Virus record (IMG/VR): IMGVR_UViG_3300027852_000116
Location: 1-35,520 of that record
DNA: 35,520 nucleotides
From: a virus
Strand: one strand, 5' to 3'
Shown: positions 104 through 35,520 of the stretch, piece by piece
Layout: every line of letters starts with the position of its first letter
How positions within the stretch are numbered: position 1 is the first letter of the stretch
Position numbers and translations under genes: made by a program
Notes under the pieces: model-generated
The model's input: only the letters and a program-made list of their open reading frames with translations
What the model was told of the DNA's origin: nothing
Databases searched by the model: none

Positions 104-775
104 ATGACACGAATTATCAGCAGATCCGAGTTAGGGCGATGGGCTGGTGTCAACAAATCCACCTCCGCCCGCGCTTGCAAAAAACACCTCTCCGATGCCG
201 TAGTACCTGACGGCGTGGATGTCGAGCACCCGCTTGTTCGCCAATGGCTCAGCGAGCACGGCGTGGACGAGTTGCCCCCGAAGCAGGACGCACCTAAGCC
301 GAAAGGTAAAAAACGGGTGCGAAAGAAAGCCGTAGCTAAGACCCCTCCCAAACAATCGCCGCCAGCAGAGACCAAACCGGTTCACGCGCACGACCTGGAA
401 CACCTCGAAGATTTAACAATTCGAGAAGTCGTGATGCGCTACGGATCGGTCGATGGTTTCAAAAGATTTGTTGACAGTCTCAAAAGTATTTCAGAATTTA
501 AGTACAAAGAGCTGCGGGCAAAACAGCAACGCGGTGATCTGATTGACCGTCAAAAAGTCGCCGGTTTAGTTTTCCCAATGATCGATGTTGCTTTTTCTCG
601 ACTGGTAACAGACGTCCCGGTGGCGGTGAGTAAGTCCGTTGTGGCCAGAGTTCAATCCGGCGGCCCTGAAACCTACACCGACGTGCAAAAAATCATTCGT
701 GACGCCAATAGTCGAGTACTTAAAAACGTTAAGCAGTCCGCCATGAATTTGGAGATTTTAAACGATGCAAATTGA
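104..775 (+). CDS. Terminase small subunit (Nu1-like), putative
   Basis: Probably recognises phage DNA and hands it to the large terminase for packaging. The first 50 residues contain a helix-turn-helix-like stretch (SRSELGRWAGVNKSTSARAC) followed by a DVEHPLVRQWL segment, which resembles the winged-helix DNA-binding domain of Nu1-type small terminases. Residues about 55-90 are rich in Lys and Pro, a likely flexible basic linker. The C-terminal half (about 95-223) is mostly helical and would carry oligomerisation and large-subunit contacts. 223 residues compares with about 180 for lambda Nu1. ATG 104 is chosen because later starts would cut into the helix-turn-helix; the ribosome site is weak. 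The gene overlaps the methyltransferase by 11 bases. The call rests on the N-terminal motif and on position before a GpA-type terminase; sequence similarity is not strong. Confidence 0.65.
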   Translation: MTRIISRSELGRWAGVNKSTSARACKKHLSDAVVPDGVDVEHPLVRQWLSEHGVDELPPKQDAPKPKGKKRVRKKAVAKTPPKQSPPAETKPVHAHDLEHLEDLTIREVVMRYGSVDGFKRFVDSLKSISEFKYKELRAKQQRGDLIDRQKVAGLVFPMIDVAFSRLVTDVPVAVSKSVVARVQSGGPETYTDVQKIIRDANSRVLKNVKQSAMNLEILNDAN

Positions 776-21590: not shown

Positions 21591-22834
21591 TGGCGTGGAA
21601 TGATAGATTAAGAGAAGCGGCATACACTCCGCCTTCAGGTATTCGTTTAACGTTCGCCTATGAAAATGTATCGAAAACAGTCGAAAAGAAAACGACGGCT
21701 TTTGAGTTTCCCGACGCTAACGGAACCTACGTGCAAGACCTTGGCCACTCAGGACGACGTTACCCTTTACGGGTGTTTTTCTGGGGGAACGACCACGACT
21801 TAGAGGCGCAAGCATTCGAGGACGCTTTGCTTGAAACTGGCACCGGTAAACTCGATCACCCATTTTATGGCTCGGTTGATGTTGTGCCGTTCGGAGAGAT
21901 TAAAACGCGGGACGATTTAAAGACTGGCGCAAATCAAACCGTAATGGAGGTGACTTTCTGGAATACTATTGGCTTAGTTTACCCGACCAACCAACAAGAC
22001 CCTGCGTCTTCTGTTCTTGCGGCGGTAAGTGAGTACAACGATGCGGCGGCCAGTGAATTCGAGGTAATCACTAGCTTAGACTCTGCTGTTGAACAGGCCA
22101 CTTTTAAAAATTCGTATCAATCTTTGCTCGATTCGGCTTCGTCCGGTTTGCAGGCAATAGCAGATGTTCAAGACGACGTTCGGACTCAGTTTGGCGCCAT
22201 CGTTGATTCGATTAACCAAGGGATCGACATTCTGGTATCTGAACCGCTTACGTTGGCTTTTCAAACCGTCCAGATGATTCAAGCACCGGCCAGAGCGTTG
22301 GCCAATATCGAGGCACGTTTAACCGCGTATTCTGACCTTGCAAATAGTTTGATCACCGGAGACGGCGCGGTTGTTTCGCCGGGTAATGATGCTAGAAACT
22401 CAAACGATTTTCACACCAACGACCTGTACGCTTCGACGTATGTTACGGGTTCAGTCGTGTCGGTCGTTAATAACCAATTCACCACCAAGACCGAAGCACT
22501 GCAAGCCGCCGAGGCCGTACTCCAACAACTTAGCGATGTTACCGATTGGCGGGATGATAATTTTCAATCTTTAAGTGAAGTCGATACCGGCGGAGCGTAC
22601 CAGCAATTACAAGAAGCGGTCGCGTTGACGGCAGGTTTTTTGGTTCAAATTTCTTTCAACTTAAAACAAGAACGACGGGTGGTTTTAGTCCGTAATCGAA
22701 CCATCGTAGATTTAGCCGCCGAGCTTTATGGCAGCGTCGATGACCAGTTAAACTTCTTGATTAGCTCAAATAATTTAACAGGCTCTGAAATTTTAGAACT
22801 TCCGAAGGGGCGTGAAATTGTCTACTACGTATAA
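21590..22834 (+). CDS. DNA circularisation / baseplate protein (Mu gpN-like)
   Basis: 414 residues. The N-terminal about 95 residues match the DNA_circ_N-type domain of Mu gpN: MAWNDRLREAAYTPPSGIRL, then EKKTTAFEFPDANGTYVQDL, GRRYPLRVFFWGNDHDLEA and DHPFYGSVDVVPFGE. Mu gpN is a baseplate component historically linked to circularising injected DNA. The middle (about 140-370) is helical with no catalytic motif. The C-terminal end contains RTIVDLAAELYGSVDD followed by a LysM-like turn, resembling domains that contact the baseplate hub. One-base coupling to the tape measure upstream; the next gene starts inside its end. Confidence 0.9.
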   Translation: MAWNDRLREAAYTPPSGIRLTFAYENVSKTVEKKTTAFEFPDANGTYVQDLGHSGRRYPLRVFFWGNDHDLEAQAFEDALLETGTGKLDHPFYGSVDVVPFGEIKTRDDLKTGANQTVMEVTFWNTIGLVYPTNQQDPASSVLAAVSEYNDAAASEFEVITSLDSAVEQATFKNSYQSLLDSASSGLQAIADVQDDVRTQFGAIVDSINQGIDILVSEPLTLAFQTVQMIQAPARALANIEARLTAYSDLANSLITGDGAVVSPGNDARNSNDFHTNDLYASTYVTGSVVSVVNNQFTTKTEALQAAEAVLQQLSDVTDWRDDNFQSLSEVDTGGAYQQLQEAVALTAGFLVQISFNLKQERRVVLVRNRTIVDLAAELYGSVDDQLNFLISSNNLTGSEILELPKGREIVYYV

Positions 22835-24053
22835 CACTTCTGCCGGAGATACCTTCGAGGCGGTCGCGCGTAAAGTTTACGGCACTGAGGTAGAAGCGTC
22901 CCGACTTCGGGAAGCCAACCCCGGCACCAGCGAGCCGTTTTCCGCAGGTATTGTTTTAGTTGTGCCTGCTTTACCCGGTACCCCGATTGACCAACCCCAG
23001 CAAGCTCAGGCGGGCTCAGAGAACGAAACTGCGGTACTAATTGAAGGTGAGCGTTTTCGTTTTTGGCAAAGCATTCGGATTACCCGAGCAATTGACGCTA
23101 TGGACACTATGGAATTGCTCGCACCTTTTGATTCAGAGGTTGCTAGTTTTCGTGAAACCTTCCGGCCTTTCTCGTATAAATCCGCCAATGTTACGGTGGG
23201 CGGCATTCCGCTATTCACCGGCACCATGGTCGGCGTTGTTCCGGTCCTGGACCCTGCACGAAAAGTCGTATCAGTAAGCGCGTATTCTTTACCCGGAGTG
23301 CTTAACGATTGTACGGCTCCGGCCAGTGCGTTCCCGTTAGAATTTAACGATCAAAATTTACGTGATATCGCCAACAAGGTGGCGGGGCTCTTTGGCCTTA
23401 AAGTGGTATTTGATGGCGAACCGGGCGCAGTATTTGACAGAGTAGCCTTAACGCCCGGAAAGAAAGTTTTATCATTTTTAGCGGACTTGGCGAAGCAGCG
23501 AAACTTGATAGTCTCGAGTACTCCACTCGGCGAGCTGTTGTTTTTAAAGTCAACCGATGCGAGACAACCGGTCGCACAATTACGGCAAGGCGAATCGCCG
23601 CTGCTATCTGTTACGCCGTTTTTCAGTCCGCAAGAGTATTACAGCCACATCACCGGACTTGAGCCGGTTTTAGTTGGTCTGGCCGGTTCGCAGTTTACCG
23701 TTAAGAATCCGAGGCTAGTCGGCGTAGTAAGGCCGATCACTTTTGAGGCTTCCGACGCGGTAGCCGCTGACGTTAAAGGTGCCGTCGAATCTAAAGCCGG
23801 TCGAATGTTTGGCAATGCGGCTTCGTATTCCATAACGTTGACAACGTGGCGCAATCCTTCAGGCAACCTTTGGGCCCCAAATTCTACGATAACTTTGATC
23901 GCCCGTGACGCCATGGTTTATTCCGAGTACGCGTTTATTGTTCGGAGCGTTGAGTTCATAAGAGAGCGAAGTGCGGAGACCGCCGTTTTAAATCTCGTCA
24001 TACCTGGCTCATTTAGTGGCCAAGTGCCGGAGGTTTTACCATGGGATGGGTAG
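22812..24053 (+). CDS. Baseplate hub protein (Mu gp44/gpP-like) with N-terminal LysM-like domain
   Basis: 413 residues; the hub links tail tube to spike. The N-terminal about 50 residues (TTYNTSAGDTFEAVARKVYG, then ANPG and VLVVPALP) look like a tail-protein-X or LysM-type domain, fused here to the gp44-like body. The body contains WQSIRITRAIDAMDTMEL, GTMVGVVPVLDPARKVVSVS, YSLPGVLNDCTAP and FLADLAKQRNLIVSSTPLGE, all typical of Mu-type hub proteins. Start is ambiguous: GTG 22812 sits one base after AAGGGG, whereas TTG 22818 has that same site at 7 bases, so the true start may be 22818. It overlaps the circularisation gene by 17-23 bases and the spike gene by 13 bases. Confidence 0.91.
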   Translation: MKLSTTYNTSAGDTFEAVARKVYGTEVEASRLREANPGTSEPFSAGIVLVVPALPGTPIDQPQQAQAGSENETAVLIEGERFRFWQSIRITRAIDAMDTMELLAPFDSEVASFRETFRPFSYKSANVTVGGIPLFTGTMVGVVPVLDPARKVVSVSAYSLPGVLNDCTAPASAFPLEFNDQNLRDIANKVAGLFGLKVVFDGEPGAVFDRVALTPGKKVLSFLADLAKQRNLIVSSTPLGELLFLKSTDARQPVAQLRQGESPLLSVTPFFSPQEYYSHITGLEPVLVGLAGSQFTVKNPRLVGVVRPITFEASDAVAADVKGAVESKAGRMFGNAASYSITLTTWRNPSGNLWAPNSTITLIARDAMVYSEYAFIVRSVEFIRERSAETAVLNLVIPGSFSGQVPEVLPWDG

Positions 24054-24658
24054 GCCGCGTATTGTCATTTTTTCGAGTTGAGCGAAACGGGGCTAAAATT
24101 TCCGATACTCAAATCGATACCGGCGGAGGCCCTAATGTAACGGCAGAACATTTCGCGCCCGCAGGCGATGATTCGTACCCGCTCGAAACTGATTATGCAA
24201 TAGGGCACGATGTTCAACAAACCGGACGGGTGGCGGTGACAGGTTACCTCGACCCAAAGAACACGCCCAAAGCCCAGAAAGGCGATAAACGAATATATGC
24301 TCGGGACGCTGACACCGGTGCGGTAGTGGTTGAAGTCTGGCTGAAGAACGACGGAACGGCGGTAATCTCGAACGATAACGGCTCGGTATTGCTTCGGCCT
24401 GATGGCGGCTCGATTGTGACCACACCGGGCGCTACATTTGACGCCAAGGCGGACGGGTCGATTAAAGGCGATAACGGCAGCGGTTCATTCGAGCTTGAGG
24501 CCGGTGGTGACTTTGTTGTTAATGGTGTTACCATAGACACGGGCGGAAATATAGTCACGGGCGGAACTTTGAACGCCGACGACGTGACGGCGGATAATCA
24601 AAACGTGACGCTCAGTACCCATAATCACGGCGGAAGCGCCCCAGTACCGGGAACATAA
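24041..24658 (+). CDS. Baseplate spike protein (Mu gp45-like)
   Basis: 205 residues (Mu gp45 is about 197). The trimeric spike pierces the outer membrane at the start of contraction. The N-terminal OB-fold part contains GPNVTAEHFAPAGDDSYPLE and the turn-rich KGDKRIYARDADTGAVVVEV. The C-terminal beta-helix part has regular short strands (GTAVISNDNGSVLLRPDGGS, FELEAGGDFVVNGVTID). The tip sequence THNHGGSAP has His194 and His196, the HxH iron-binding motif known for contractile-tail spike tips. The ATG lies inside the hub gene. Confidence 0.93.
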   Translation: MGWVGRVLSFFRVERNGAKISDTQIDTGGGPNVTAEHFAPAGDDSYPLETDYAIGHDVQQTGRVAVTGYLDPKNTPKAQKGDKRIYARDADTGAVVVEVWLKNDGTAVISNDNGSVLLRPDGGSIVTTPGATFDAKADGSIKGDNGSGSFELEAGGDFVVNGVTIDTGGNIVTGGTLNADDVTADNQNVTLSTHNHGGSAPVPGT

Positions 24659-24661
24659 AAC

Positions 24662-25105
24662 ATGGCACAGCAAGGCGATATAGTTTTAACTCAGACCGAC
24701 GACGACGGTGATATTTGCGTCGTGGACGGGTTGGTTGCTATGTCCGGCGGTTTATCGACTTCGGTTTATCTTTCGCTGTTTGGCGGTAATGAAGACGATG
24801 GTGGGGAGCAAGACTCGGTTTTAAATTGGTGGGGGAATATTGACGAAAACGAATTAGAAAGACAGTACCGAAGCGAGACGCAATATTTGCTGCAGGGCAT
24901 TCCGGCCACGTCAGGAAATTTGCGAAGAATTGAAGACGCCGCTGTCCGTGATCTCGATTGGTTATTGAGCAGCAACGTAGCGTCGAAAGTATCGGTTGCG
25001 GCTTCAATACCTGGGCTAAACCGAATAAAACTGATAATAGACCTCGAGGCGAATGGCGAAGAGTCGCGCTTTGAGTTCGTAGAAAATTGGAAGGTCGCAC
25101 CATGA
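24662..25105 (+). CDS. Baseplate wedge protein (Mu gp46 / gp25-like)
   Basis: 147 residues, following the spike as in Mu. Wedge proteins of the gp25/GpW type seed sheath polymerisation at the baseplate. Family-like features are DGDICVVDGLVAMSGGLSTS near the N terminus, YLSLFGGNEDDGG, LNWWGN, and the C-terminal LDWLLSSNVASKVSV. It overlaps the next gene as ATGA at 25102-25105. Confidence 0.9.
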   Translation: MAQQGDIVLTQTDDDGDICVVDGLVAMSGGLSTSVYLSLFGGNEDDGGEQDSVLNWWGNIDENELERQYRSETQYLLQGIPATSGNLRRIEDAAVRDLDWLLSSNVASKVSVAASIPGLNRIKLIIDLEANGEESRFEFVENWKVAP

Positions 25106-26298
25106 GCTTAATTACACCAACAACGAAAGCGATAAACGATAACATCATTGCGCAGTTAGAAGCGTCGCTTAACCAATCGATACCGTTATTGCCTAAATCC
25201 TTTATGCGCGTACTGGCCAAAGCACTGGCTGGCGTTTTTGTTATTTTGTACAAGTACGGCGGCTTCATGTTCTTGCAAATTTTTGTAAGGACGGCCAGTT
25301 TTTCCGCCACCAACATTAACGGCGAAGACGTGAACCCTTTGACCGAGTGGGGGCGTTTGATTGGTGTTGGCGACCCAGCCGCTGCGACGATCGCCGAAAT
25401 GACCATCGACATGACGGTCAACAATCAAACTGGCACTTTGCCGTCTGGGTCCCAATTAGTGAACACTGATAACGGCGTGACTTATATCACTATCGGCGCA
25501 GTGTCGCTTAACGCGGCAACCGTTCAAGCAACTATCCGGGCGGTTTCAGACCAAACCGGTGGCGGGGGTGCGGGCGTGATCGGAAACCTTGATCCCGGCG
25601 CGACTGTTTCTTTTGCCAACCCATTGGCGAACGTTGCCCGTGATGCTATAGTCGTCACACAGACGGTCACAGGTGCCGACGCAGAGACAACCGAAGCCTA
25701 CCGCCAGCGAGTAATCGACCGGTTCCAGAAACGCCCTCAAGGCGGCGCGTATGCCGATTACGAAATATGGGGAGAAGAACCGGCGGGGATCATAAATATT
25801 TATCCGTACACTAGCGATTGTCCCGGCCAAGTGGACGTTTACGTTGAAGCGACGCCGGAAAGTTCGGGCGACCCCGATGGCACTCCAACCGCACCACAAC
25901 TTCAAGAGGTTCTTGACTCCATCGAGTTAGACAGCAACGGGCTGGCAAGCAGGCGTCCGGCTAATGCGCTAGCAAACACTTTCCCGATAACCCGCACGGG
26001 TTTTGATGTCCAAGTAACTGGCCTGCAGGTTGATAATTTGGCATCGGTTCAAGCAACCATAACGACCGCCATCGAAGAATACTTTCTCGACCGTGAGCCG
26101 TTCATTACAGGCCTGTCGGTTTTACCACGACGCGACCGAATAACTCGAAGTGCAATAGGCGGAACGGTGGACGATATTGTTAGTGCGGCGGGCGGAATAT
26201 TTAGCTCGGTAATTGTTAGCCAATCAACGATCAATGTTGAGTTATATTCTCTCGGTATCGGTGAGAAAGCCAAAGCAAGTACGGTAACGTTTGTATGA
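25102..26298 (+). CDS. Baseplate J-like wedge protein (Mu gp47-like)
   Basis: 398 residues from ATG 25102, which overlaps the previous stop as ATGA and has GGAAGG 7 bases upstream; the longer frame from 25087 is not preferred. Baseplate_J-type features are NINGEDVNPLTEWGRLIGV, the beta-rich TGTLPSGSQLVNTDNGVTY, AGVIGNLDPGATVSFANPLA, then TGADAETTEAYRQRVIDRFQ, GGAYADYEIWGEEPAGI and the YPYTSDCPGQVDVYVEA strand pair. These proteins form the ring of wedges around the hub. The end overlaps the next ATG by 4 bases. Confidence 0.94.
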   Translation: MSLITPTTKAINDNIIAQLEASLNQSIPLLPKSFMRVLAKALAGVFVILYKYGGFMFLQIFVRTASFSATNINGEDVNPLTEWGRLIGVGDPAAATIAEMTIDMTVNNQTGTLPSGSQLVNTDNGVTYITIGAVSLNAATVQATIRAVSDQTGGGGAGVIGNLDPGATVSFANPLANVARDAIVVTQTVTGADAETTEAYRQRVIDRFQKRPQGGAYADYEIWGEEPAGIINIYPYTSDCPGQVDVYVEATPESSGDPDGTPTAPQLQEVLDSIELDSNGLASRRPANALANTFPITRTGFDVQVTGLQVDNLASVQATITTAIEEYFLDREPFITGLSVLPRRDRITRSAIGGTVDDIVSAAGGIFSSVIVSQSTINVELYSLGIGEKAKASTVTFV

Positions 26299-27110
26299 AT
26301 TTTTTGCGCATCCTACAGCATCTATTGCCTAATGCGAGAGCATGGCGAACAACGGTTGATAAACAGCTTCGGCAGTTTTTTGACGGGTTGGCAGCTACAG
26401 GTGACAATGTAAAATCTTTTTTCGATTTGGTATGGCTTGATGTCTTCCCGCAAACAACCCGAGAGTTGGACGCTTGGGAAGATCAATTCGGGCTACGCGA
26501 TACGGGCACTACTGAGCAAGAACGACGGAATAGATTAGACGCGACATGGAAAGCCCTTGGCGGTCAAGATCCTCGGTATATTCAGGACACTCTACGCGGA
26601 GCGGGTTTCGACGTCTATGTCCACCAATGGTGGGAACCGGGAACTAAGCCAGCGGTAAGTGTTAAGCAATGCGTTACTCCCCGAAACCCTTTACAGTGGA
26701 TACGGCGCGAATTTACGGGGGCTAATTTGCTGGTTGAATGCGGAGAGGCTAACGCAGCATGTGGAGAGTCTTTTGCGGAGTCTGGTAACGGATTTAGCCC
26801 GCTCGGTTATCCGCTGGTTAATAAAATTTTTGAGACTACGCCCGATATAATACCGGCTTGCGGAGAAGTACTTGCGGAAGCTGGTGAGCCTGACGCACTA
26901 TGCGGAAATTATTTTAGATTCATAGACAAGTTAAAAGAGTATGTAGTACCGAACGAACCGGACAAATGGCCATATTTTTTGTACATAGGTGGCCAAGTTT
27001 TCGGAGACTTAGCAATAGTTGACTCAAAAAGACGGAGTGAGTTCGAGGATCTTTGTCTTAAAATTTGCCCGACTCAACAATGGTTAGGTATACTAGTTGA
27101 ATACGGATAG
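26295..27110 (+). CDS. Tail protein connecting wedge to fibre (Mu gp48 / YmfQ-like, DUF2313)
   Basis: 271 residues, coupled to gp47 through ATGA. Residues 1-110 show the family core: LLPNARAWRTTVDKQLRQFF, ELDAWEDQFGLRDTGTTEQE and DTLRGAGFDVYVHQWW. Mu gp48 is shorter (about 193); the excess here is a segment at about 140-205 with two Cys-Gly pairs in duplicate: ECGEANAACGESFAESG (Cys149, Cys156) and ACGEVLAEAGEPDALCG (Cys189, Cys203). The C-terminal part (YVVPNEPDKWPYFLYIGG, then CLKICPTQQWLGILVEYG) is common in this family. Its product probably connects baseplate wedges to the tailspike encoded next. Confidence 0.9.
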   Translation: MNFLRILQHLLPNARAWRTTVDKQLRQFFDGLAATGDNVKSFFDLVWLDVFPQTTRELDAWEDQFGLRDTGTTEQERRNRLDATWKALGGQDPRYIQDTLRGAGFDVYVHQWWEPGTKPAVSVKQCVTPRNPLQWIRREFTGANLLVECGEANAACGESFAESGNGFSPLGYPLVNKIFETTPDIIPACGEVLAEAGEPDALCGNYFRFIDKLKEYVVPNEPDKWPYFLYIGGQVFGDLAIVDSKRRSEFEDLCLKICPTQQWLGILVEYG

Positions 27111-27123
27111 TGGAGCATAAATC

Positions 27124-29373
27124 ATGTCATTAAATTTAGAAACGCAATACCCTGGGAAAATAAACCCGTCAGATGCAGACTACCCGTATGGGTCGGCTCG
27201 AAATATTACCGTTCCGGGGGACGGTACGGGAACGCCATGGGAACAAGCTATCGTTAATGATAACATCGGGTTCCAGCAATCTTTATTAACGGCGGCGGGC
27301 ATAGTGCCTAGTGGCTCCCCAGATAAAGTAGGTGAATCCCAGTTTTTACAAGCCCTTTTAAGTATCTCGGGTCGGACGGAACTAACGACAATTACTATGG
27401 CCAGCATGAAAGAGCCGAAGGTCGGGCAACTGGTGACTACTTTAGAATTCGATACCGGTAACGGCCTGAACAGTGGAGCCCCGTACGTCGGTGTTCTCAC
27501 TTCAAGTGGTACGCCAAACGGGACGGATTTTATAGTAAGTACCGAGGATGCGTTAATTAGTTTTCAACTGAGGACAGGCACTTCCGCAAATGTTAAGCAC
27601 TTCGGTGCAAAAGGCACGGGGGCAGACGATACCGTCGCGGTTCGTGCGGCGGCGGCCTACTTAAAGGCTCTTGGCGGCGGTTCTTTATACTTCCCAGACG
27701 GAACTTACGCGTTATCTACCGGCGATGCACCGGCGTACTGTTTGAGGATACCCGCAAATGTGCGCGTTTTTGGTGAGTCCAAAGCTGGGACGATTATTAC
27801 TCGGCTTGTCTTAGAGGAAGTTAGTATCCTTTTTGTCAATGACGATGCGGACACGGCTACCGGATACGCAGCCGCAGGTAACATCACCATAGAACACCTC
27901 ACTATGACCGACAGTGTTACAAACACCGAAAGAAACGCAACGAATGGCGACCTAATCGCGTTCGGGCATGGCGACGGATTAATAGTTCGGGACTGTCACT
28001 TTGGAAACCACACGCAGCATTGTCTTGATATTGGAGGGTCTAAAAACATACTGTTTGCCGGGAACACCCAGCTTAACAGTAACGGAGCGACGGGATTTGC
28101 TGAAAATTCCGCGGTACAAGTTGACTCTGCGAACGGGGCGGCGTTTTTAGGGTTAAACATAGACGGAACTGAAACGGAGCAAGTCACTATAACCGACAAT
28201 CGGTTTATCAATACGAACACCAATACGCTGCTACACGTCGGGCATAATGGCGGCACAGCGAAAAATGTGATAATTGCCAATAACTATTTCGAAGGGACAA
28301 GCAGGTCGTTCGGTAAATTCATTAGGACGGATGTTGACGACGCGAGTATTGACGGGCTTATAATAAAAGGTAACACTTTCAATCTGACCACACAGGCAAA
28401 CCTTTCAGCGGTATCTATAATCACTAACGGCAACAACAGCGAGTCTTTTAAAAATGTCGTTATATCCAACAACACAATAGTGGGTTTAGCAAGAATAGGG
28501 ATAGACTTCGGCGGATCAGAATCGTATCTCGGCGCTAATTTACCTTCAATTGAAAACATAAACATATCGGATAATACTTTAGATTTGGACTTTACGGGAG
28601 CGGCCACGCTAAACGTAGGAATAAAAGCCGACCTTTGCAAAGCCTCGTCAATTCGCGGAAACAATATAAAAATATTTAAAGATACGGACGACGTCGATAT
28701 GTTTGGCATACGGTCGATCACTTCTACGATGATGGACATTATAGGGAACACAATACTAACGGGTTTAACAACGTTTACAGGTGCCAACCTAAGTGCGGGT
28801 ATCAAGGTTGACCGCTTCGGGTCCATCGCGACTTCAGCGCTGGTGGATATTTCTGTGATTGATAACAATCTTGACGTAACGAAACTAGATTACGGGATAC
28901 ATCATGAGTTTCTAGTTAATGGGAATACGGTATTGCTAAGCGGGAATCGATTCAGCGGGGACTTGGTAAATGGTGACGCTCATATATTTGAAAGTATACC
29001 TACCAGCGACGGGTCGAACGGATATCGATCTATAGATTTAACCGGTGCGGGCGGGTACACTTTGCCGGTTGCGATAGATACTTCATACGCGATAACAACC
29101 GGCTTAATTAAGAAGGCGGGGACTAACACTGTACGGTCGATTGAAAAAATAGATATCAACTATACTAGCTTAGGCGCGTCGTCTCTATCAACCGTAACGG
29201 AGCAATTCTTTGACGACGCCAATATTGCGCTGCAGGTGAGCGCCATCGACCCGAGTGCAGGGACATTCGACTTGGTTACGGGGAGTACGGCCATAACCAC
29301 GACGATCAAAGCACCGACAACCGCAGACTCGAATAGGGTGTCGGGTAATATTTCAATCATGGCGGGCATATAG
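27124..29373 (+). CDS. Tailspike / receptor-binding protein with pectate-lyase-type beta-helix
   Basis: 749 residues. The N-terminal about 85 residues (YPYGSARNITVPGDGTGTPW, then NDNIGFQQSLLTAAGI and PSGSPDKVGESQFLQAL) match the virion-attachment domain seen in many phage tail fibres. At about 157-195, VKHFGAKGTGADDT and SLYFPDGTYALS match the pectate_lyase_3 opening of a right-handed beta-helix. Repeated rungs with Asn-rich turns follow to about residue 640 (such as VTITDNRFINTNTNTLLHVG and VIIANNYFEG). The last about 100 residues form a different C-terminal domain, likely for trimerisation. Such proteins bind and often cleave surface polysaccharide; the active-site residues cannot be placed from sequence. 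The gene lies after the baseplate genes and before lysis. Confidence 0.9.
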   Translation: MSLNLETQYPGKINPSDADYPYGSARNITVPGDGTGTPWEQAIVNDNIGFQQSLLTAAGIVPSGSPDKVGESQFLQALLSISGRTELTTITMASMKEPKVGQLVTTLEFDTGNGLNSGAPYVGVLTSSGTPNGTDFIVSTEDALISFQLRTGTSANVKHFGAKGTGADDTVAVRAAAAYLKALGGGSLYFPDGTYALSTGDAPAYCLRIPANVRVFGESKAGTIITRLVLEEVSILFVNDDADTATGYAAAGNITIEHLTMTDSVTNTERNATNGDLIAFGHGDGLIVRDCHFGNHTQHCLDIGGSKNILFAGNTQLNSNGATGFAENSAVQVDSANGAAFLGLNIDGTETEQVTITDNRFINTNTNTLLHVGHNGGTAKNVIIANNYFEGTSRSFGKFIRTDVDDASIDGLIIKGNTFNLTTQANLSAVSIITNGNNSESFKNVVISNNTIVGLARIGIDFGGSESYLGANLPSIENINISDNTLDLDFTGAATLNVGIKADLCKASSIRGNNIKIFKDTDDVDMFGIRSITSTMMDIIGNTILTGLTTFTGANLSAGIKVDRFGSIATSALVDISVIDNNLDVTKLDYGIHHEFLVNGNTVLLSGNRFSGDLVNGDAHIFESIPTSDGSNGYRSIDLTGAGGYTLPVAIDTSYAITTGLIKKAGTNTVRSIEKIDINYTSLGASSLSTVTEQFFDDANIALQVSAIDPSAGTFDLVTGSTAITTTIKAPTTADSNRVSGNISIMAGI

Positions 29374-29777
29374 TGTTTGCTCTCAGTGAAAGATCAAAGC
29401 GTAACCGGTCAGAAGTTGACGTCCGGTTAATCCAAATAAGCGACCTAGCGATCACTATTTCGCTGGTTGATTTTGGTCACGGTAGGGTTGCAGGTAAGCG
29501 AACCGCCGAAACGCAAAACCAACTATTTAAAGAAGGCAAATCAAAGGCCGACGGCTTTGAGAAACTAAGCGAACACCAATCAGGCAACGCGTTGGACTTT
29601 TACGCGTATGTAGACGGGAAAGCAAGCTGGGATCCCGAGCACCTGGCCATGGTGGCAGCGGCATTCTTACAGGCCGCCTCGACGCTTGGTTACAGAGTCA
29701 AATGGGGCGGTCTTTGGAAGTCTAGCCGCTCTAAACTTTACGGCTGGGATATGCCGCACATTCAATTAGTGGAGTAA
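29373..29777 (+). CDS. Endolysin, M15-type L-alanyl-D-glutamate peptidase
   Basis: 134 residues. Predicted to cut the peptide stem of peptidoglycan. The zinc-site pattern is SEHQSGNALDF (His68, Asp75) and, near the end, WDMPHIQL (Asp126 as the likely base, His129 as a ligand), with WGGLW at 111-115; this is the VanY/T5-type M15 layout. There is no signal peptide, so release depends on the holin encoded next. The start is a GTG at 29373 that overlaps the tailspike TAG by one base; no later ATG precedes the conserved region with a better ribosome site. Confidence 0.92.
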   Translation: MFALSERSKRNRSEVDVRLIQISDLAITISLVDFGHGRVAGKRTAETQNQLFKEGKSKADGFEKLSEHQSGNALDFYAYVDGKASWDPEHLAMVAAAFLQAASTLGYRVKWGGLWKSSRSKLYGWDMPHIQLVE

Positions 29778-29781
29778 TGTT

Positions 29782-30207
29782 ATGACACCAATTATCGGCG
29801 ATGTAATTTCAGCAGGTTTTGGATTAATCGATTCGCTTTTTACCAGCGACGAAGAAAAATCAGCGGCAAAGCTTAAATTGCAAACTTTGGCTCAGCAAGG
29901 AAAACTAAAGGAACTTGAGATCGGAATGTCTGCAATTATCGCAGAAGCAAACTCGAAAGACCCTTGGACGTCTAGAGCAAGACCGTCGTTTTTATATGTC
30001 ATGTACCTTATGATTCTAACCGCCATCCCTATGGGCGTTTTGTCGGCGTTTCAGCCTGAAATTGCAGAACGCATTGCAACTGGACTGCAGCTTTGGTTGG
30101 CGGCCATTCCTGACGCGATGTGGACGCTCTTTGGAGTAGGCTATACGGGTTACGCGGTTAACAGAACTTATGATAAACACTCCAAAAACAAACATGGTGC
30201 GAAATGA
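29782..30207 (+). CDS. Holin, three-TM type (GTA-holin-like)
   Basis: 141 residues. Permeabilises the inner membrane to release the endolysin. It has a charged N-terminal half with a long helix (KSAAKLKLQTLAQQGKLKEL), then DPWTSRARPSFLYVMYLMIL, a hydrophobic segment to about residue 90, and another at about 105-127 (TGLQLWLAAIPDAMWTLFGV), finishing in a basic tail. The N-terminal helix followed by a SRxRP-type motif and hydrophobic segments matches the GTA_holin_3TM-type family by memory. It starts 4 bases after the endolysin stop and overlaps the next gene by ATGA. Confidence 0.82.
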   Translation: MTPIIGDVISAGFGLIDSLFTSDEEKSAAKLKLQTLAQQGKLKELEIGMSAIIAEANSKDPWTSRARPSFLYVMYLMILTAIPMGVLSAFQPEIAERIATGLQLWLAAIPDAMWTLFGVGYTGYAVNRTYDKHSKNKHGAK

Positions 30208-30500
30208 ACGAAGACACCATAGCCGACGTCGAGAAGAAAGCAATAGATCGCGTCCCGAACTGGTTTTGGGGCGTCGCAGGTATCGCTTTTGTTTCGTCGA
30301 TATGGCTATTTTTTAACGGGCTTAATCTCGGTTCTATTGTTAACCGATACATCGATGTACGGTTCGAGGAACGCAAGGCGCAGCAAAGTTGCAGAATTCC
30401 ACAGATACTTGAACTACAGGCGAAAGTTGACGATCTACTCCACCGGATTGAACCTGTCGAAGAACTTTCACATGAAGCACACAACAAACCGGAGAAATAG
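30204..30500 (+). CDS. One-TM lysis-cassette protein (spanin- or antiholin-like), unknown
   Basis: 98 residues with a single hydrophobic segment at about 19-38 (WFWGVAGIAFVSSIWLFF) and a charged, partly helical remainder with QILELQAKVDDLLHRIEPVE, a possible coiled coil. Coupled to the holin by ATGA. Inner-membrane spanins have an N-terminal TM and a periplasmic coiled coil and would fit, but this one is short and no outer-membrane lipoprotein partner is visible. An antiholin or holin accessory is also possible. Confidence 0.6.
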   Translation: MNEDTIADVEKKAIDRVPNWFWGVAGIAFVSSIWLFFNGLNLGSIVNRYIDVRFEERKAQQSCRIPQILELQAKVDDLLHRIEPVEELSHEAHNKPEK

Positions 30501-30501
30501 T

Positions 30502-30729
30502 ATGACAACCTCAATTAAAGTTTCGGCGCATTGCGCTGATGATAGAGAAGTCGTAATCGATTACAAAGACAACAACGGCGCGCAACAACAGGTAATACAG
30601 GACGGTGAGGAATTTGAAACCGTAGTTTATGACGATCTTTGTTGTTCTGCCCGTGAAAGACCAAAAGTTGTTGCAACTCCGAGCGCGGGCGGAGACGGGA
30701 AAACTCGGCCAAAACCCGACACACAGTAA
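30502..30729 (+). CDS. Small soluble hypothetical protein of the lysis region
   Basis: 75 residues from ATG 30502, with GGAG 7 bases upstream. It begins MTTSIKVSAHCADDREVVID, continues with QQQVIQDGEEFETVVYDDLC, and ends in a Lys-, Gly- and Pro-rich tail. From memory, similar small proteins (KVxAHCADxxEV opening, VYDD motif) occur near lysis or tail genes of many phages and have no assigned function. The stop TAA is at 30727-30729, after which the same frame stays open and becomes strongly hydrophobic (next entry). Confidence 0.65.
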   Translation: MTTSIKVSAHCADDREVVIDYKDNNGAQQQVIQDGEEFETVVYDDLCCSARERPKVVATPSAGGDGKTRPKPDTQ

Positions 30730-30730
30730 A

Positions 30731-30960
30731 ATGTTGCCTTAAGTGTTTTTGTACTAACACTGATTGCGCTCTCTGCTATCATCTGCCATAAGCAAGATCG
30801 AACAGCAGTAATTGTTTTCAGTATTTGCACCCTATCGTTTGCTTGGGCTGGTACAAAAATTGACGACGCCTTTGCGACCTTCTATTACGTCGGGGCGGCG
30901 GCGGTTATCTCATTGAGCGTCCTCATATCTTTTTGCCCCCGACCATGGCGCGGTTCTCCG
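30731..30960 (+). pseudogene. Membrane-protein reading frame without a usable start, probably frameshifted
   Basis: Reading from 30733 in the frame of the preceding gene gives three strong hydrophobic segments: VALSVFVLTLIALSAIICH, then TAVIVFSICTLSFAWAG, then FATFYYVGAAAVISLSVLIS, ending around FCPRPWRG. This looks like a real small membrane protein, but the frame has no ATG, GTG or TTG before its third segment. An ATG at 30731 is one frame off (ATG TTG CCT TAA); one extra T in the CCTT run would join it as M-L-P-L-S-V-F-V-L. The frame then runs on antisense to the MazG-like gene until 31272. It may be a broken gene, a sequencing indel, or a product of stop readthrough or frameshift. Confidence 0.45.
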
Positions 30961-31321
30961 GCTTATGATCGGCACGTTGTTGGTTATATTTCAATTTTTC
31001 AACCAATGCACCGCCAAGATCAAGGCCAAACGCGCCCGCATAGTCAAAAATTCGGATCAACGCATCGGCCAGCTCGACTTCCTCCATTTTGCGGTGCTTC
31101 AGGTGGGTGTCTTTGCAATCCTTACGAACGCCCTCCAAGCACTCCGAAATCTCGGAATGAATCAAACAGAGCAGTTCGGCTTTATTGCGTTTCAGACGTT
31201 CGCCAGTTTCTAGGTCATGCCACCAACCACCATCGACGGCGGCGCAATGGCAGATGTCGCTCAAATTATTAACGCTTTCTTGTAATTCACACATGGGTTG
31301 CTTCCTGTAGTTGACTATCAT
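30923..31321 (-). CDS. MazG-like nucleotide pyrophosphohydrolase
   Basis: 132 residues. Predicted to hydrolyse nucleoside triphosphates to monophosphate and pyrophosphate with divalent metal. The core motif pair is visible: AELLCLIHSEISECLEGVRK (ExxE) and then MEEVELADALIRIFDYAGAF (ExxD-type), the metal-binding helices of MazG-like enzymes. It is the last gene of the minus-strand operon, 4 bases after the polymerase stop. Two starts are possible: ATG at 31321 with AAGGA at 8 bases, or an internal ATG (MCELQESV) with AGGAAG at 6 bases. In phages such enzymes adjust the dNTP pool or remove a competing nucleotide; the substrate cannot be read from sequence. Confidence 0.82.
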   Translation of the reverse strand: MIVNYRKQPMCELQESVNNLSDICHCAAVDGGWWHDLETGERLKRNKAELLCLIHSEISECLEGVRKDCKDTHLKHRKMEEVELADALIRIFDYAGAFGLDLGGALVEKLKYNQQRADHKPENRAMVGGKKI

Positions 31322-31325
31322 AATA

Positions 31326-33683
31326 TTAATCCTTCTGATATCGTTTATGTCGCCAACCGGCGGCGCGTAGTGGCCACCATGAAGCCCACTCGGGACGTTC
31401 GGACATTATCGCCGACATCTCGTCAACACTTCCGAACCACTCCGGTACTTCGGCGGTGCCCTCATCGTGGGTATGCATGACAATCGGATAGCCTCTTGCC
31501 TCACAACGCAGTAGTGCATCGAACTGAATGTCCGCCGCCACCGCTTGCACGACGTTCTCAAATAGGCGTCCGCCGTAAGTCTCCATGCGGTGCCAGCCTA
31601 TAGGACCTTTGGCGCTGTTTGAGTTATAGCCCTCGAAGGTGATTTGATACGACGGCCCCCTGTTCAATTTGTCCTGCGCTTCGGCTAGGCGTGGGCGGTG
31701 GTAATGCAAATAACGTCCTGAAGGCAAACGGCAATAAAGAATATAGTCGCGCACCGCGTAGGTTATATCGATATGGCTGAAACATTGGCCAGGGTAAAGG
31801 ATGGCGTTAATCGCCGCGCCTTCAAGACCGAAAAGCTCCGGTCGGTAGTCCCATTTCCCCGGACCGCACCAGCGGAATTGACCGCCCCACATCTCGACGA
31901 TTTCGGGCGATTCTTCACGCCACTTGAGGACGTCCTGCTTAATCTCGTCCTCGTTCATGAATTTATCTGCGCCGAAATTTGTCCATGCTCCGATCCAACC
32001 GCCGTACCCACCGGCCAGTTCTCGCACCTTGCCGATAGTCTTTCGGGCGGGGTGGTGCATGCCGTTTTTCTTCTTGTAGTCGAGGATTTCTTGAAACGGA
32101 ATGCCGGTGGCGTTGGCCGCGCTTTGCTCGTATATTTTGCCATGGCCGCTGAATACTTCGATCCGCCATTGGCAACGAGATAAGCACGCCGCCGCCACCG
32201 CTTCAATCGCCGAGAAGTCGCAGCAAATGAAATCCTTGCCCTCGACGGCCATGAGTAGTCCCCGCAGACAGCCACAAAGCACCGTAATCGGGTCGCCCCA
32301 TACGACCTCAAGGTGGTCGAGTTTTCGCGTTAAAATCATCTTGATAGCGGATTCAACCGCTTCAACCGTCCAATCTGACATCGTGTGGAACATGAAAGAC
32401 CCGCAATGCGGGCACTCACTGGCCCACTCGTCCGGGTTAAAAAATTCTTCGCACGCTTCACACTGAGCCGACTTCGGACCTTTCGACGTGATGTTTTGCA
32501 ATTGAACGCCGCCCGCCGAAGCGCGCCCTGTTCTATCGGCTCCGCAGTACATGTACTGGTCGCGAAGTCGTCCGTCGCTACTGACCTGCAGTTTAAGCGT
32601 TCGGAGTTTCTTGACGTTGGCCGCGCCGAGTGTATCGCGTATTTCTAGTGCCCTTCGAGCGACCGGCGGAATGTCTTCACGCTTGAGCGTATCAGAGACG
32701 GTTTGTTTCTGCATATTCGGCATACTGAGCCCGACCGACCCGAGCCAGTCCACGAACTTGGCCACTTCGGACACTGAACCCACCGCGCCTTGAGTTATCT
32801 GGCCGAGCTCCATTGTATATTTGCGTTCAGTCTGGCCAAGTATGTCCAGCATGGCGTCGAGTGCTTCAGTATCGACCGGCACGCCGCGAACGTTTATGGT
32901 CTGATCCATTTGCCAGGTAGCGAACTCTTGCGGGCTTAGGTCGGGGATCATTGCAGAGGCGTGATCTTCGGTTTGAACATCGACGTCGCAGTAGGCGTAA
33001 AATTTTACAAAGTCGTCCCACGCCGTCGCTGGCGTCCATCGGTGCTCGGGTCGGTTTTTGGCTGGCGTATGGGGTCTGGTTAGTTTCTGGATTAACCGGC
33101 CACCTTCTTTGTCTTTTTCTAGGGTGCCGAGAACTGCAGCAGCTTTACCCAATGCGCCCGGAAGGCTATGCCGTCTTGATTTGGCCATAGCGCACCGGCA
33201 TTGTTCGAGTTCTAACACTGGCCAGCCGTAACGCTTGGTGCAGACCATATTCCAAATCCAAAACTCAAAGGTCACGTTCCACGCTTCGATCAACCCGCCG
33301 TTTTGAATGTGGGCGATTAAATCAAGCGGATCGGGAAACCCTGGGTACCACGCCCGTCTGCCTTTGCCGTCTTTCAAATCATAATACAAACAGAGTACTT
33401 CGGTCGAATCATGGCAGGCATAGTTCGGCGTACCGACGACCGGCAGACCGCCTTTACCTTGCGCGCCTACGCCTTTCACCTTGCCCGTCTGGGGGTCGAT
33501 ATTGAAACCTGCCTCGCTATACGTCTCGAAATCCATTGAAGGCAATACAAGCGACGTGCCGAGGTCTACCGAGATTGGAGTATTGGCGGAAAGTTGAGTT
33601 GCGTCGGCTGGCCATTCATCCGGATCAAGATGTTCGCCAACATAATGTTCGAACGTATGTCGCCCGAATAATAGGCGTTTCAT
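31326..33683 (-). CDS. Family A DNA polymerase with 3'-5' exonuclease, phage type
   Basis: 785 residues from ATG 33683, which overlaps the upstream gene as ATGA; a longer frame from 33734 is not preferred. It replicates the phage genome. The exonuclease domain starts near SMDFETYSE (Asp51, Glu53) and includes AWNVTFEFWIW and the CDVDVQTEDH motif near 232-241. Polymerase landmarks are DRTGRASAGGVQLQNI (about 383-398), motif A CDFSAIEA (about 488-495), motif B RKTIGKVRELAGGYGG (547-562), YGGRLFENVVQAVAADI, and motif C HTHDEGT with HDE at 739-741. No 5'-3' exonuclease domain is present. Between LQNI and motif A is an insert with four Cys (CEAC at 408-411, CPHC at 424-427), a probable zinc ribbon. 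Confidence 0.95.
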   Translation of the reverse strand: MKRLLFGRHTFEHYVGEHLDPDEWPADATQLSANTPISVDLGTSLVLPSMDFETYSEAGFNIDPQTGKVKGVGAQGKGGLPVVGTPNYACHDSTEVLCLYYDLKDGKGRRAWYPGFPDPLDLIAHIQNGGLIEAWNVTFEFWIWNMVCTKRYGWPVLELEQCRCAMAKSRRHSLPGALGKAAAVLGTLEKDKEGGRLIQKLTRPHTPAKNRPEHRWTPATAWDDFVKFYAYCDVDVQTEDHASAMIPDLSPQEFATWQMDQTINVRGVPVDTEALDAMLDILGQTERKYTMELGQITQGAVGSVSEVAKFVDWLGSVGLSMPNMQKQTVSDTLKREDIPPVARRALEIRDTLGAANVKKLRTLKLQVSSDGRLRDQYMYCGADRTGRASAGGVQLQNITSKGPKSAQCEACEEFFNPDEWASECPHCGSFMFHTMSDWTVEAVESAIKMILTRKLDHLEVVWGDPITVLCGCLRGLLMAVEGKDFICCDFSAIEAVAAACLSRCQWRIEVFSGHGKIYEQSAANATGIPFQEILDYKKKNGMHHPARKTIGKVRELAGGYGGWIGAWTNFGADKFMNEDEIKQDVLKWREESPEIVEMWGGQFRWCGPGKWDYRPELFGLEGAAINAILYPGQCFSHIDITYAVRDYILYCRLPSGRYLHYHRPRLAEAQDKLNRGPSYQITFEGYNSNSAKGPIGWHRMETYGGRLFENVVQAVAADIQFDALLRCEARGYPIVMHTHDEGTAEVPEWFGSVDEMSAIMSERPEWASWWPLRAAGWRHKRYQKD

Positions 33684-34285
33684 ACTCGCACCCCCATAAT
33701 ACGGAATTTGCCGTACTCCGAGTTCCCGGTGCAACCGTTTTCCGCGTTCACACTATCAACAAAAACCGTTAAATCCTTGCCGTTGGTTGCCGCTTTTAAA
33801 TAGTCGGCTCGAACCGCCCCGCCGTTGGTGAATTTTACGAATTGAAATGGCTTGGTTTTTGTTCCGGGGGAACTTAGACACGGTTCCGCCTCGACGGTTC
33901 TGCATGAGTTTGGCGCGTTAAACGGAGCCTTTACCCTATCGAGGTCGGGCAGCGTGCCCTTATAGTCGACCCGCAATTGCGTTTTAGGATCGTAAGTCCC
34001 GTCAGGTAGGTAAGTGTCCGCCCAGTGCATTCTATGACCATCGGTGGCGGTCGCTATGCCGTTTTTCACATGAATGTAGTGCGTGAATTCTCGGACGTCT
34101 TTAATACCGCACGCCATACCTACCCCTTGCTCGGCGGATTTAGCTTTTTTCGGTAACGCGGGAGCGAAAAAATTTAAAAGTTTATCAAGTTGTTTGCCGG
34201 GCGGCACGCGATCGTCCTGCTTCATGGCAAGAACTGCTTGGTATGCCGCCTTTCGACTGAATTTGTCTAAAGTCGCTAGTTTCAT
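33680..34285 (-). CDS. Sliding-clamp-like processivity protein, putative
   Basis: 201 residues directly upstream of the polymerase and overlapping it by ATGA. The centre reads HVKNGIATATDGHRMHWADT, then LPDGTYDPKTQL and YKGTLPDLDRVKAP. The ATDGHR (80-85) and PDxDRV motifs recall beta-clamp domains (an ATDGHRL-type motif is common there). The last part has VRADYLKAATNGKDLTVFVD and ends in a strand FRIMGVRV, similar to phage clamp-like proteins. It is too short for a three-domain clamp, so it would need to oligomerise or act as a single-domain accessory. The N-terminal 50 residues are helical and basic. The similarity is motif-level, from memory. Confidence 0.55.
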   Translation of the reverse strand: MKLATLDKFSRKAAYQAVLAMKQDDRVPPGKQLDKLLNFFAPALPKKAKSAEQGVGMACGIKDVREFTHYIHVKNGIATATDGHRMHWADTYLPDGTYDPKTQLRVDYKGTLPDLDRVKAPFNAPNSCRTVEAEPCLSSPGTKTKPFQFVKFTNGGAVRADYLKAATNGKDLTVFVDSVNAENGCTGNSEYGKFRIMGVRV

Positions 34286-34524
34286 AGTCCATCCTCCTCG
34301 ATTGCTTCGGGTGTCAGTGCGGTATTCTTGCCCCAGATAAATGCGATAGCAGCGAACGTTGCCTTGATCTTATGCTTGCCGACTTGGAGAATATACGTGC
34401 CGTTATGGGCGAACCGTGGGGCGGCGCTTTTGACTCGGGTTTTAATCAGCGAGTCGTTATGGCTAAGGACAAAATCGCCCCTCAAATCGACGTGCTGTTT
34501 TCCTTGCTTTTTATAGAAATACAT
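34282..34524 (-). CDS. Small hypothetical protein in the replication operon
   Basis: 80 residues from ATG 34524 (MYFYKKQGKQHVDLRGDFVL), one base after the stop of the upstream gene, with GAGGG 8 bases before it. A longer frame from 34575 would overlap that gene by about 50 bases and is less likely. The protein is basic and beta-rich, with HNGTYILQVGKHKIKATFAA in the centre and an acidic end EAIEEDGL. I do not recognise a family. The stop overlaps the clamp-like start as ATGA, so it is co-translated with the replication genes. Confidence 0.6.
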   Translation of the reverse strand: MYFYKKQGKQHVDLRGDFVLSHNDSLIKTRVKSAAPRFAHNGTYILQVGKHKIKATFAAIAFIWGKNTALTPEAIEEDGL

Positions 34525-34525
34525 G

Positions 34526-34717
34526 TCAAATGCCCTCGAGTGCCGAAGCCGGAAAGCGCATTTTCCCCCACGCACCCGGACGAGTTCGATTGTCTATCTC
34601 CAAATCTCCAACTATAGCCCCGCATTGGGCGCACCATCGAACAACTTTTTCGGAGTCGTCCCAGCTAGGGTGAATTCGGGTAATTACTTGGAGGTCATGT
34701 TCGTTGTCTTTACACAT
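34526..34717 (-). CDS. Small zinc-ribbon-type protein of the replication operon
   Basis: 63 residues with a CxxC knuckle VVRWCAQCGAIVGDLEIDNR (Cys29, Cys32) and an N-terminal MCKDNEHDLQ that could supply Cys2 and His7 as further ligands. Small proteins with a C-HD-WCxxCGA pattern are frequent in phage early regions and have no assigned function. It starts 20 bases after a strong minus-strand terminator and its ribosome site is weak, so its expression may depend on terminator readthrough or an unseen promoter. Confidence 0.6.
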   Translation of the reverse strand: MCKDNEHDLQVITRIHPSWDDSEKVVRWCAQCGAIVGDLEIDNRTRPGAWGKMRFPASALEGI

Positions 34718-34736
34718 ATTTTGGGAGCCCTACGTT

Positions 34737-34768
34737 AAAAAGGCCGCCCGTCGTATTGACCCGGCGGC
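34737..34768 (-). terminator. Rho-independent terminator on the minus strand
   Basis: Read on the minus strand, GCCGCC (34768-34763) pairs with GGCGGC (34748-34743), with an inner GTC/GAC pair (34760-34758 with 34752-34750) around AATAC, followed by C and five T (34741-34737). It lies 10 bases after the stop of the DNA-binding protein gene. The stem is GC-rich and only the minus-strand side has a T run. Confidence 0.8.
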
Positions 34769-34778
34769 GAAGTGGTGA

Positions 34779-35348
34779 TTACCGCTGAGGCATGAAATTA
34801 TGCGCCTGCTGCGGTTGACCGCCACCAAATGCGCGAGAAGTATCAACTCCGCTGCCGCCAAAGTTCTGGCGTTGGGCATTTGCGCTTGCAATGATCGAGA
34901 ACGCATCAAGACCGGTCGCGATACCTTTGTTGCCTGCTTTGTCGTACTCATAACAGTGAAGCAAAACATCAACCTGCTGGCCGCCATATAGCGCCTGTCC
35001 GTATTGCATTGGGTCGAGACGTTGACCGTTTTCGTCGTAAACGTCTGGCAGGCGTTGAGTGTTACAGTTTAGAACCGCCCAGCCGTTGTACATGCCGTTA
35101 AATTCGGTCGGCATAGCTTGGCCAATCGGCATGCGTCCGCCTTGCGGCAGTACGCCTTGGAATTTCGACTGCTGCAGCGACGTATTAGCCAACGATTGAA
35201 ACAGAGCAAGATCGGGGCTGTTCGGGTTACAAACGACCTTGAGCGAGTATTTCGGCGATCCATCTTGGTTCTTATCGGGTCGAGTAATTCCGTCCCAAAC
35301 AACAAAACAGCCGAGTATCTTTACGTGAGTATCATCAAATTGTGGCAT
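34779..35348 (-). CDS. Phage single-stranded DNA-binding protein (DUF2815-like), putative
   Basis: 189 residues. Supporting pattern: an OB-fold-like opening (VKILGCFVVWDGITRPDKNQ, then SPKYSLKVVCN), a helix (FQSLANTSLQQSKFQ), a beta-rich middle (MYNGWAVLNCNTQRLPDVYD) and YDKAGNKGIATGLDAFSIIA, followed by a Gly-, Gln- and Asn-rich tail FGGGQPQQAHNFM. This matches, from memory, phage ssDNA-binding proteins encoded next to PolA-type polymerases. It lacks the acidic tip of bacterial SSB. AGAGGAAA precedes ATG 35348, a strong ribosome site. A terminator right after the stop suggests separate high-level expression, as expected for a stoichiometric DNA-binding protein. Confidence 0.6.
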   Translation of the reverse strand: MPQFDDTHVKILGCFVVWDGITRPDKNQDGSPKYSLKVVCNPNSPDLALFQSLANTSLQQSKFQGVLPQGGRMPIGQAMPTEFNGMYNGWAVLNCNTQRLPDVYDENGQRLDPMQYGQALYGGQQVDVLLHCYEYDKAGNKGIATGLDAFSIIASANAQRQNFGGSGVDTSRAFGGGQPQQAHNFMPQR

Positions 35349-35379
35349 TTTTATTTCCTCTATTTAGTAAGTTTAAGTT

Positions 35380-35520
35380 TTATTCGAAATCTTTGTATAA
35401 GTTGCCGCCGACGCTCAACCCTTCGGGTAGGCTCGTAATGCCCGTGCCTTCAAGGTCTAAGTTGCCGCCGACGCTCAACCCTTCGGGTAGGCTCGTAATG
35501 CCCGTGCCTCGAAGGTATAA
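35380..35520 (-). CDS. Leucine-rich-repeat protein, C-terminal fragment (cut by window edge)
   Basis: The minus strand from the right edge encodes 46 residues ending in TAA at 35380-35382. They consist of 20-residue units: LYLRGTGITSLPEGLSVGGN, LDLEGTGITSLPEGLSVGGN, then LYKDFE and the stop. The LxLxGTGITSLPEGL pattern is a bacterial-type leucine-rich repeat, so the missing N-terminal part probably contains more units. The array stops just after starting another unit, with no C-terminal cap. It lies 31 bases upstream of the DNA-binding protein in the same direction. LRR proteins bind other proteins; the target is unknown. Only the C terminus is in the window, so length, signal peptide and start cannot be judged. 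Confidence 0.75.
   Translation of the reverse strand, partial: LYLRGTGITSLPEGLSVGGNLDLEGTGITSLPEGLSVGGNLYKDFE
35401..35520 (-). repeat. Two tandem 60-bp coding repeats of the LRR gene
   Basis: 35401-35460 and 35461-35520 are tandem copies, identical at 57 of 60 positions (differences at positions 50, 51 and 57 of the unit). Each unit encodes one 20-residue leucine-rich repeat on the minus strand. The second copy runs to the window edge, so more copies may follow. Such high DNA identity points to recent duplication or ongoing copy-number change by recombination or slippage. Confidence 0.9.

Follow-up and report, generated by a model that had tools for sequence, protein, structure and literature searches.

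The end of this viral sequence raises two questions: whether a truncated minus-strand frame of leucine-rich repeats (LRRs) belongs to a real gene and, if it does, what a phage might use such a protein for. The window analysed here is a virus record of 35,520 bases ending at position 35520. By ORF translation, its last minus-strand frame reads LYLRGTGITSLPEGLSVGGN LDLEGTGITSLPEGLSVGGN LYKDFE followed by a stop, running off the contig end. Each unit is 20 residues long (LxLxGTGITSLPEGLSVGGN), and TRF reported the array as a tandem repeat with a period of 60 bp (2.1 copies, 93% matches, score 231), the sole strong tandem repeat in the window. This frame is the 3' end of a real LRR gene, with the following features:

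35380..35520, minus strand: 3' end of the LRR gene, 46 codons plus stop, open at the contig end
35461..35520, minus strand: LRR unit LYLRGTGITSLPEGLSVGGN, with codon 2 TAC (Y) and codon 4 CGA (R)
35401..35460, minus strand: LRR unit LDLEGTGITSLPEGLSVGGN, with codon 2 GAC (D) and codon 4 GAA (E)
35380..35400, minus strand: C-terminal tail LYKDFE plus stop, a terminal half-unit strand
35380-35382, minus strand: stop codon TAA of the LRR gene

The initial annotation had recognized the LRR identity of the frame but described the units as perfect and the protein as ending without a cap. Neither description held: the first unit differs from the second at codons 2 and 4, and the protein closes with a short terminal strand, LYKDFE, that has counterparts in other LRR-only relatives (...GGRIFKNF in L065, ...GGSLYKDF in L080, ...SGTIFKDF in L133).

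The other half of the gene was located on contig L031 (3300027852_000276, 12,433 bases), which terminates in the same 60-base units as the window:

L031, 12092-12433: 5' part of the LRR gene, comprising the start and units, the last unit cut by the contig end

Here the gene starts as MDVKLEGKKLTIKVIKEFDTEGN, with an ATG that follows the exonuclease stop by 3 bases and a ribosome-binding-like stretch; a 23-residue N-terminal segment is followed by at least 5 units. The gene order on L031 is helicase, a 247-aa gene, phrog_69 exonuclease, LRR gene. A contig from a second metagenome (L150, 3300002180_000278) encodes an exonuclease 100% identical to that of L031 and the same LRR start. From that metagenome also comes contig 3300002180_000062, which, as L002, is 100% identical to window positions 24782-35498 and, as L027, identical to 22386-35498; it too stops within the repeat. 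The presence of both sides of the array in metagenome 3300002180 supports a single phage with the order exonuclease, LRR, ssDNA-binding protein, polymerase. The gene model, assembled from two halves on separate contigs (the start from L031, the end from the window), implies that the LRR gene of the window phage has a start codon and at least 7 units. The initial annotation had allowed that the full gene might prove a short low-complexity frame, or one lacking further units and a start; such a spurious frame is ruled out by the ATG and further units on L031 and by the conserved family described below.

The LRR gene is thus flanked by the exonuclease on L031 and, next downstream in the operon, by a gene for an ssDNA-binding protein (SSB). 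Both the SSB-like neighbour and the placement in a replication and recombination operon agree with what had been proposed from the sequence at the outset. Small genes of unknown function lie between the SSB and polymerase genes, and the downstream members are as follows:

34779..35348, minus strand: ssDNA-binding protein, Enc34/gp2.5-like (PF10991, 2.9e-10; phrog_112, 3.7e-14)
33680..34285, minus strand: 201-aa protein of unknown function, same operon
31326..33734, minus strand: family A DNA polymerase, same operon (phrog_17, 3.6e-85)

Eight related phage contigs have no LRR gene here, their exonuclease and SSB genes being separated by a gap of only 2-11 bp, and for this reason the LRR gene is considered an accessory insertion. 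Another phage, L065, has a short LRR gene at this position, between genes for an exonuclease that is 39% identical and an SSB of a different PHROG. Three other observations concern these genes and their surroundings. Weak HypA-like and C1 zinc-binding profile matches at residues 417-452 of the window polymerase suggest an inserted zinc-binding stretch. A 388-aa DNA methyltransferase-like frame, recognized by eye, lies at window positions 765-1931 and is followed immediately by the large terminase gene. In a close relative, the ssDNA-binding protein (L003, 5051-5938) carries a long Q/N-rich C-terminal tail that the window SSB does not have.

LRR proteins had been called uncommon in phage replication operons, which is only partly right: relatives of the array were found in 257 IMG/VR stretches and in 36 contigs from genomes of bacteria and archaea, as well as in Edwardsiella phage Edno5, plasmids, and E. 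coli prophages. Members differ in their N-terminal segment and C-terminal domain, and the window protein is of the LRR-only type. Its units have the hallmarks of an LRR solenoid in sequence (units of 20-30 residues, an L-x-L strand, and an N/T/C-x-L motif). The L031 protein scored exactly at the Pfam LRR_1 cut-off (20.6 vs 20.6) and several relatives scored above it; otherwise the profile libraries returned generic LRR matches, without function. AlphaFold models were confident; in that of the L031 N-terminal part, the repeats had a pLDDT of about 95 with a short strand in every unit, and the protein of L031 and the window is accordingly modelled as a curved solenoid of parallel strands. Fold matches of this model were LRR proteins, only one of which passed E 0.001; those in the PDB included designed LRRs, lamprey variable lymphocyte receptors (VLRs, among the first matches), IpaH/SspH domains, and an LRR protein of the polar flagellar motor (PDB 8z5u, 8z5w, 8z60), the host genus of which we take to be Vibrio. 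The flagellar protein was the best PDB match by both sequence and fold and shares the unit xVGGxLxLxxTxIxxLP (E 1.5e-28). Type III effector profiles reached at best 11-34 bits against cut-offs of 450-1243, ruling out an identity as a type III LRR effector (YopM, IpaH, SspH, XopL). The anti-defence or host-takeover role offered in the initial annotation is plausible, although PADLOC gave no match to the LRR proteins, a result that would still permit an undescribed function, and their PHROGs matches were to families of unknown function only.

Several kinds of C-terminal extension were observed in other members. A conserved domain of ~85 residues follows the array in L119, L014, L114, L071, and the E. 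coli loci L154-L157 (NVAYRENCGYSxRTIFAxWxGKEFRIAAGCFFGTIxEFExAVD... in enterobacterial members); in E. coli A34 it stands alongside no LRR unit and in phage GF-2 alongside only one, and it may represent the constant effector portion of the enterobacterial LRR proteins, in which both N- and C-terminal parts are conserved. A different, longer domain of ~165-185 residues (...YIKADGIFSxVVSHKxNVYKI...HGDTLKEAxADLIYKI...) was found in L016, L020, L028, L033, L040, and L094, members of Bacteroidales or Clostridia type by sequence; no Pfam or PHROG match to this domain was found in the two that were scanned (L033 and L028). On several large phage contigs (L103-L111), numerous distinct short LRR genes follow one another in tandem; each is a gene of its own, and its units have diverged.

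The most striking feature of this family, and one beyond the view of the initial annotation, is codon-restricted variation at the positions predicted for the concave face. In the 7 units of L031 and the window, codon 2 is either GAC or TAC and codon 4 either GAA or CGA, with no other difference. When near-identical units were compared in pairs across 80 proteins, non-synonymous to synonymous differences numbered 582:4 at position 20, 478:3 at position 2, and 607:2 at position 4; framework positions were unchanged or showed mostly silent changes. Unit pairs are not independent, and arrays were therefore counted instead. At each of positions 20, 2, and 4, 35-38 of 42 arrays varied in residue and 0-2 varied synonymously. 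Clustering of the frameworks left 32 independent arrays, in which residue variation was observed in 31, 27, and 27 (positions 2, 4, and 20, respectively) and synonymous variation in 0, 2, and 1. The resulting ratio, 85:3 non-synonymous to synonymous, compares with 44:41 at eight control positions, the others left free in the search pattern (Fisher 1.6e-12).

The residues involved are few. Usually two or three occur at a given position of an array (S/Y or S/W at position 20, D/Y at position 2, and R/E, R/S or R/Q at position 4), and the same pairs recur across phages of different codon usage (TCG/TGG, TCT/TAT, CGC/GAA, CGA/GAA). Units aromatic at both positions 20 and 2 were rarer than in permuted arrays (15 observed vs 37 +/- 4), an avoidance that points to constraint at the protein level. 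Most arrays showed little linkage between variable positions; the linkage of positions 20 and 2 in some arrays fits the avoidance of double aromatics, and the arrays are too short to support more. Adjacent units did not share residues above chance at any of the three positions. In the LRR strand, x-L-x-L-x, the side chains that alternate with the core leucines face the concave, ligand-binding side. Positions 20, 2, and 4 flank two core leucines and, from knowledge of the LRR fold and their place in the strand, are expected to lie on that face. As far as sequence comparison can establish it, units kept alike in DNA with three residues per unit kept different is a broad pattern among these phages and prophages, combining high unit identity within a gene with variation in few codons, as in the fungal HNWD receptors considered below.

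The number of units also varies. To avoid assembly doubts, counts were taken from complete genomes: E. coli prophages carry 14 (ET846), 8 (ET791), 5 (LHM10-1), and 0 (A34) units in a gene downstream of the repressor; in three of these prophages it lies close to exoX or immediately ahead of it, and six units are perfectly duplicated within the ET846 array. The same gene has 7 units in Edwardsiella phage Edno5 and 1 in GF-2. Two metagenome contigs (L017 and L018) share a flank and differ by an eight-unit block, though assembly may have influenced this difference. A contig end cuts the LRR frame in 31 of the 80 viral loci that carry relatives of the array, indicating that such genes systematically break assemblies, and short-read assembly may have collapsed metagenome arrays. 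Breakage of this kind, as in the window, suggests why such genes are overlooked.

Exonuclease, ssDNA-binding or annealing genes directly adjoin the LRR gene in L031, L065, L083, L071, L039, L133, and L118, and in other records recombination genes lie within a few genes of the array. Seven recombination families were searched for in 48 records, and those without a match were left out. In 15 of the 22 records with a match, a recombination gene was located no more than 3.5 kb from the array, where 5.2 were expected at random placement; this value was reached in none of 200,000 simulations, though the figure is weakened by family relatedness and by the general clustering of early genes. For records of at least 25 kb the count was 13 of 20 (4.3 expected, P 2.5e-5). 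Arrays also occur elsewhere, near a head-tail adaptor gene in L062 and near PAPS reductase in L041, and the proximity could reflect a shared early, gene-exchanging region with no functional link.

Taken together, we assign a probability of about 60% to the reading of the window frame as the last part of a rapidly diversifying LRR binding protein, an accessory, cytoplasmic phage protein and probably an early one. In it, a brief N-terminal segment would lead into a solenoid of 7 or more 20-residue units, closed by a short terminal strand, with its gene apparently inserted between those for the phrog_69 exonuclease and the gp2.5-like ssDNA-binding protein. Unequal recombination between units would add, remove, and re-order them while keeping the framework uniform, with the neighbouring phage recombination genes as a possible source; selection on the three face residues would maintain a small combinatorial alphabet. 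In this way the concave surface could be remodelled rapidly as its partner changes. Less surely, the partner may be a host protein encountered while phage DNA replicates or recombines, such as a host nuclease or defence sensor, and the protein, acting early in the cytoplasm, might then serve as a fast-evolving binder for host takeover or counter-defence. The most general form of the idea is speculative and, as a whole, improbable: that phages carry fast-reshuffled LRR recognition proteins with a three-residue code per unit, which neutralize variable host factors from beside the recombination module.

The gene's position allows another reading, in which the LRR protein is a recombination helper: as a scaffold for the exonuclease, the SSB or the annealing protein of the phage, it would assist phage recombination or replication. 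The LRR gene lies directly between exonuclease and SSB in the window phage and in L065, arrays lie near RecE, RecT, Erf, YqaJ or exoX genes in many other phages, and the polar flagellar motor of Vibrio contains a related LRR protein as a structural component. Yet the adjoining exonuclease and SSB families vary from phage to phage, the LRR gene is missing from eight close relatives, and a partner encoded alongside would not obviously need such variable contact residues; we regard a helper role as rather unlikely. More doubtful still is a surface or secreted protein, whether an adhesin, a receptor-binding protein, or a YopM/IpaH-like effector delivered to a eukaryote. Bacterial effectors belong to the same broad LRR class, with weak profile matches and a shared fold, and a diverse LRR-like protein of a Vibrio mediterranei phage sits in the tail module (PMC10945359). 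Here every profile score fell far under its curated cut-off, the gene lies in a recombination operon rather than a tail module, no effector domain was found, and no signal peptide was seen by eye in the N-terminus (MDVKLEGKKLTIKVIKEF...). The surface-binding role suggested in the initial annotation is not favoured.

The remaining two explanations concern the variation itself. Near-perfect 60-bp units and changes in copy number are what would be expected if a functionless array expanded and contracted by neutral slippage, with the three-codon variation as a by-product. That account fares poorly against the contrast between the three positions and their controls, the avoidance of double aromatics, and the conserved N- and C-terminal parts of the enterobacterial members, and we give it very little weight. 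Mutations confined to a few codons of a binding protein are a hallmark of diversity-generating retroelements, and the changes observed are restricted in just this way. A reverse transcriptase (RVT_1) was found in 1 of 35 array records, and none in contigs L002 and L031, which cover part of the window phage; no single template-like adenine pattern is apparent, since the CGC/GAA, TCG/TGG, and GAC/TAC toggles differ in kind. Such a retroelement, rejected as the cause on the rarity of reverse transcriptase, is in our judgement the least probable of the explanations.

The preferred reading, a diversifying cytoplasmic binder, can be set against known systems. Among the closest are Edno5 gp47 (YP_010052858, hypothetical) and the LRR protein of E. 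coli prophages near exoX, which have the same 20-residue unit as the window and the same variable positions and letters (S/Y/W, D/Y, R/E). Their genes likewise lie near recombination genes, in an early pL-type operon, with copy number differing between relatives; unlike the window protein, they carry the extra ~85-residue C-terminal domain (FRIAAGCFFG...). The flagellar-motor LRR protein differs in that its array is divergent and non-homogenized and has a structural role in the motor. Type III effectors (YopM, IpaH/SspH, XopL/XopAC) share short bacterial LRR units, whereas the phage proteins have no ligase or effector domain and no secretion signal was seen. LRR proteins of phages and other dsDNA viruses have already been described; in open papers, no prior description was found of a widespread phage LRR family with units homogenized in DNA but diversified at just the codons predicted for the concave face, with small residue sets that recur across unrelated hosts, and with a place beside recombination genes. 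The proposed three-residue code per unit would be modular in the manner of TAL repeats or the lamprey receptors. The VLRs of lamprey and hagfish are also LRR solenoids diversified on the concave face, but these extracellular, disulphide-capped receptors are put together somatically from gene cassettes, and no such features were seen in the phage LRRs. By analogy, the evolutionary parallel that comes closest lies in the WD40 repeats of the Podospora HNWD NOD-like receptors (het-d, het-e), in which near-identical repeats are maintained by concerted evolution, with few hypervariable codons on the interaction face, gain and loss of units, and failure of short-read assembly (PMC12222747). There the repeats form WD40 propellers in a fungal immune receptor; here they are LRR units in phages. 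If the preferred reading is true, phages would possess a recombination-driven binding repertoire of their own, with a logic comparable to that of the HNWD receptors or the VLRs.
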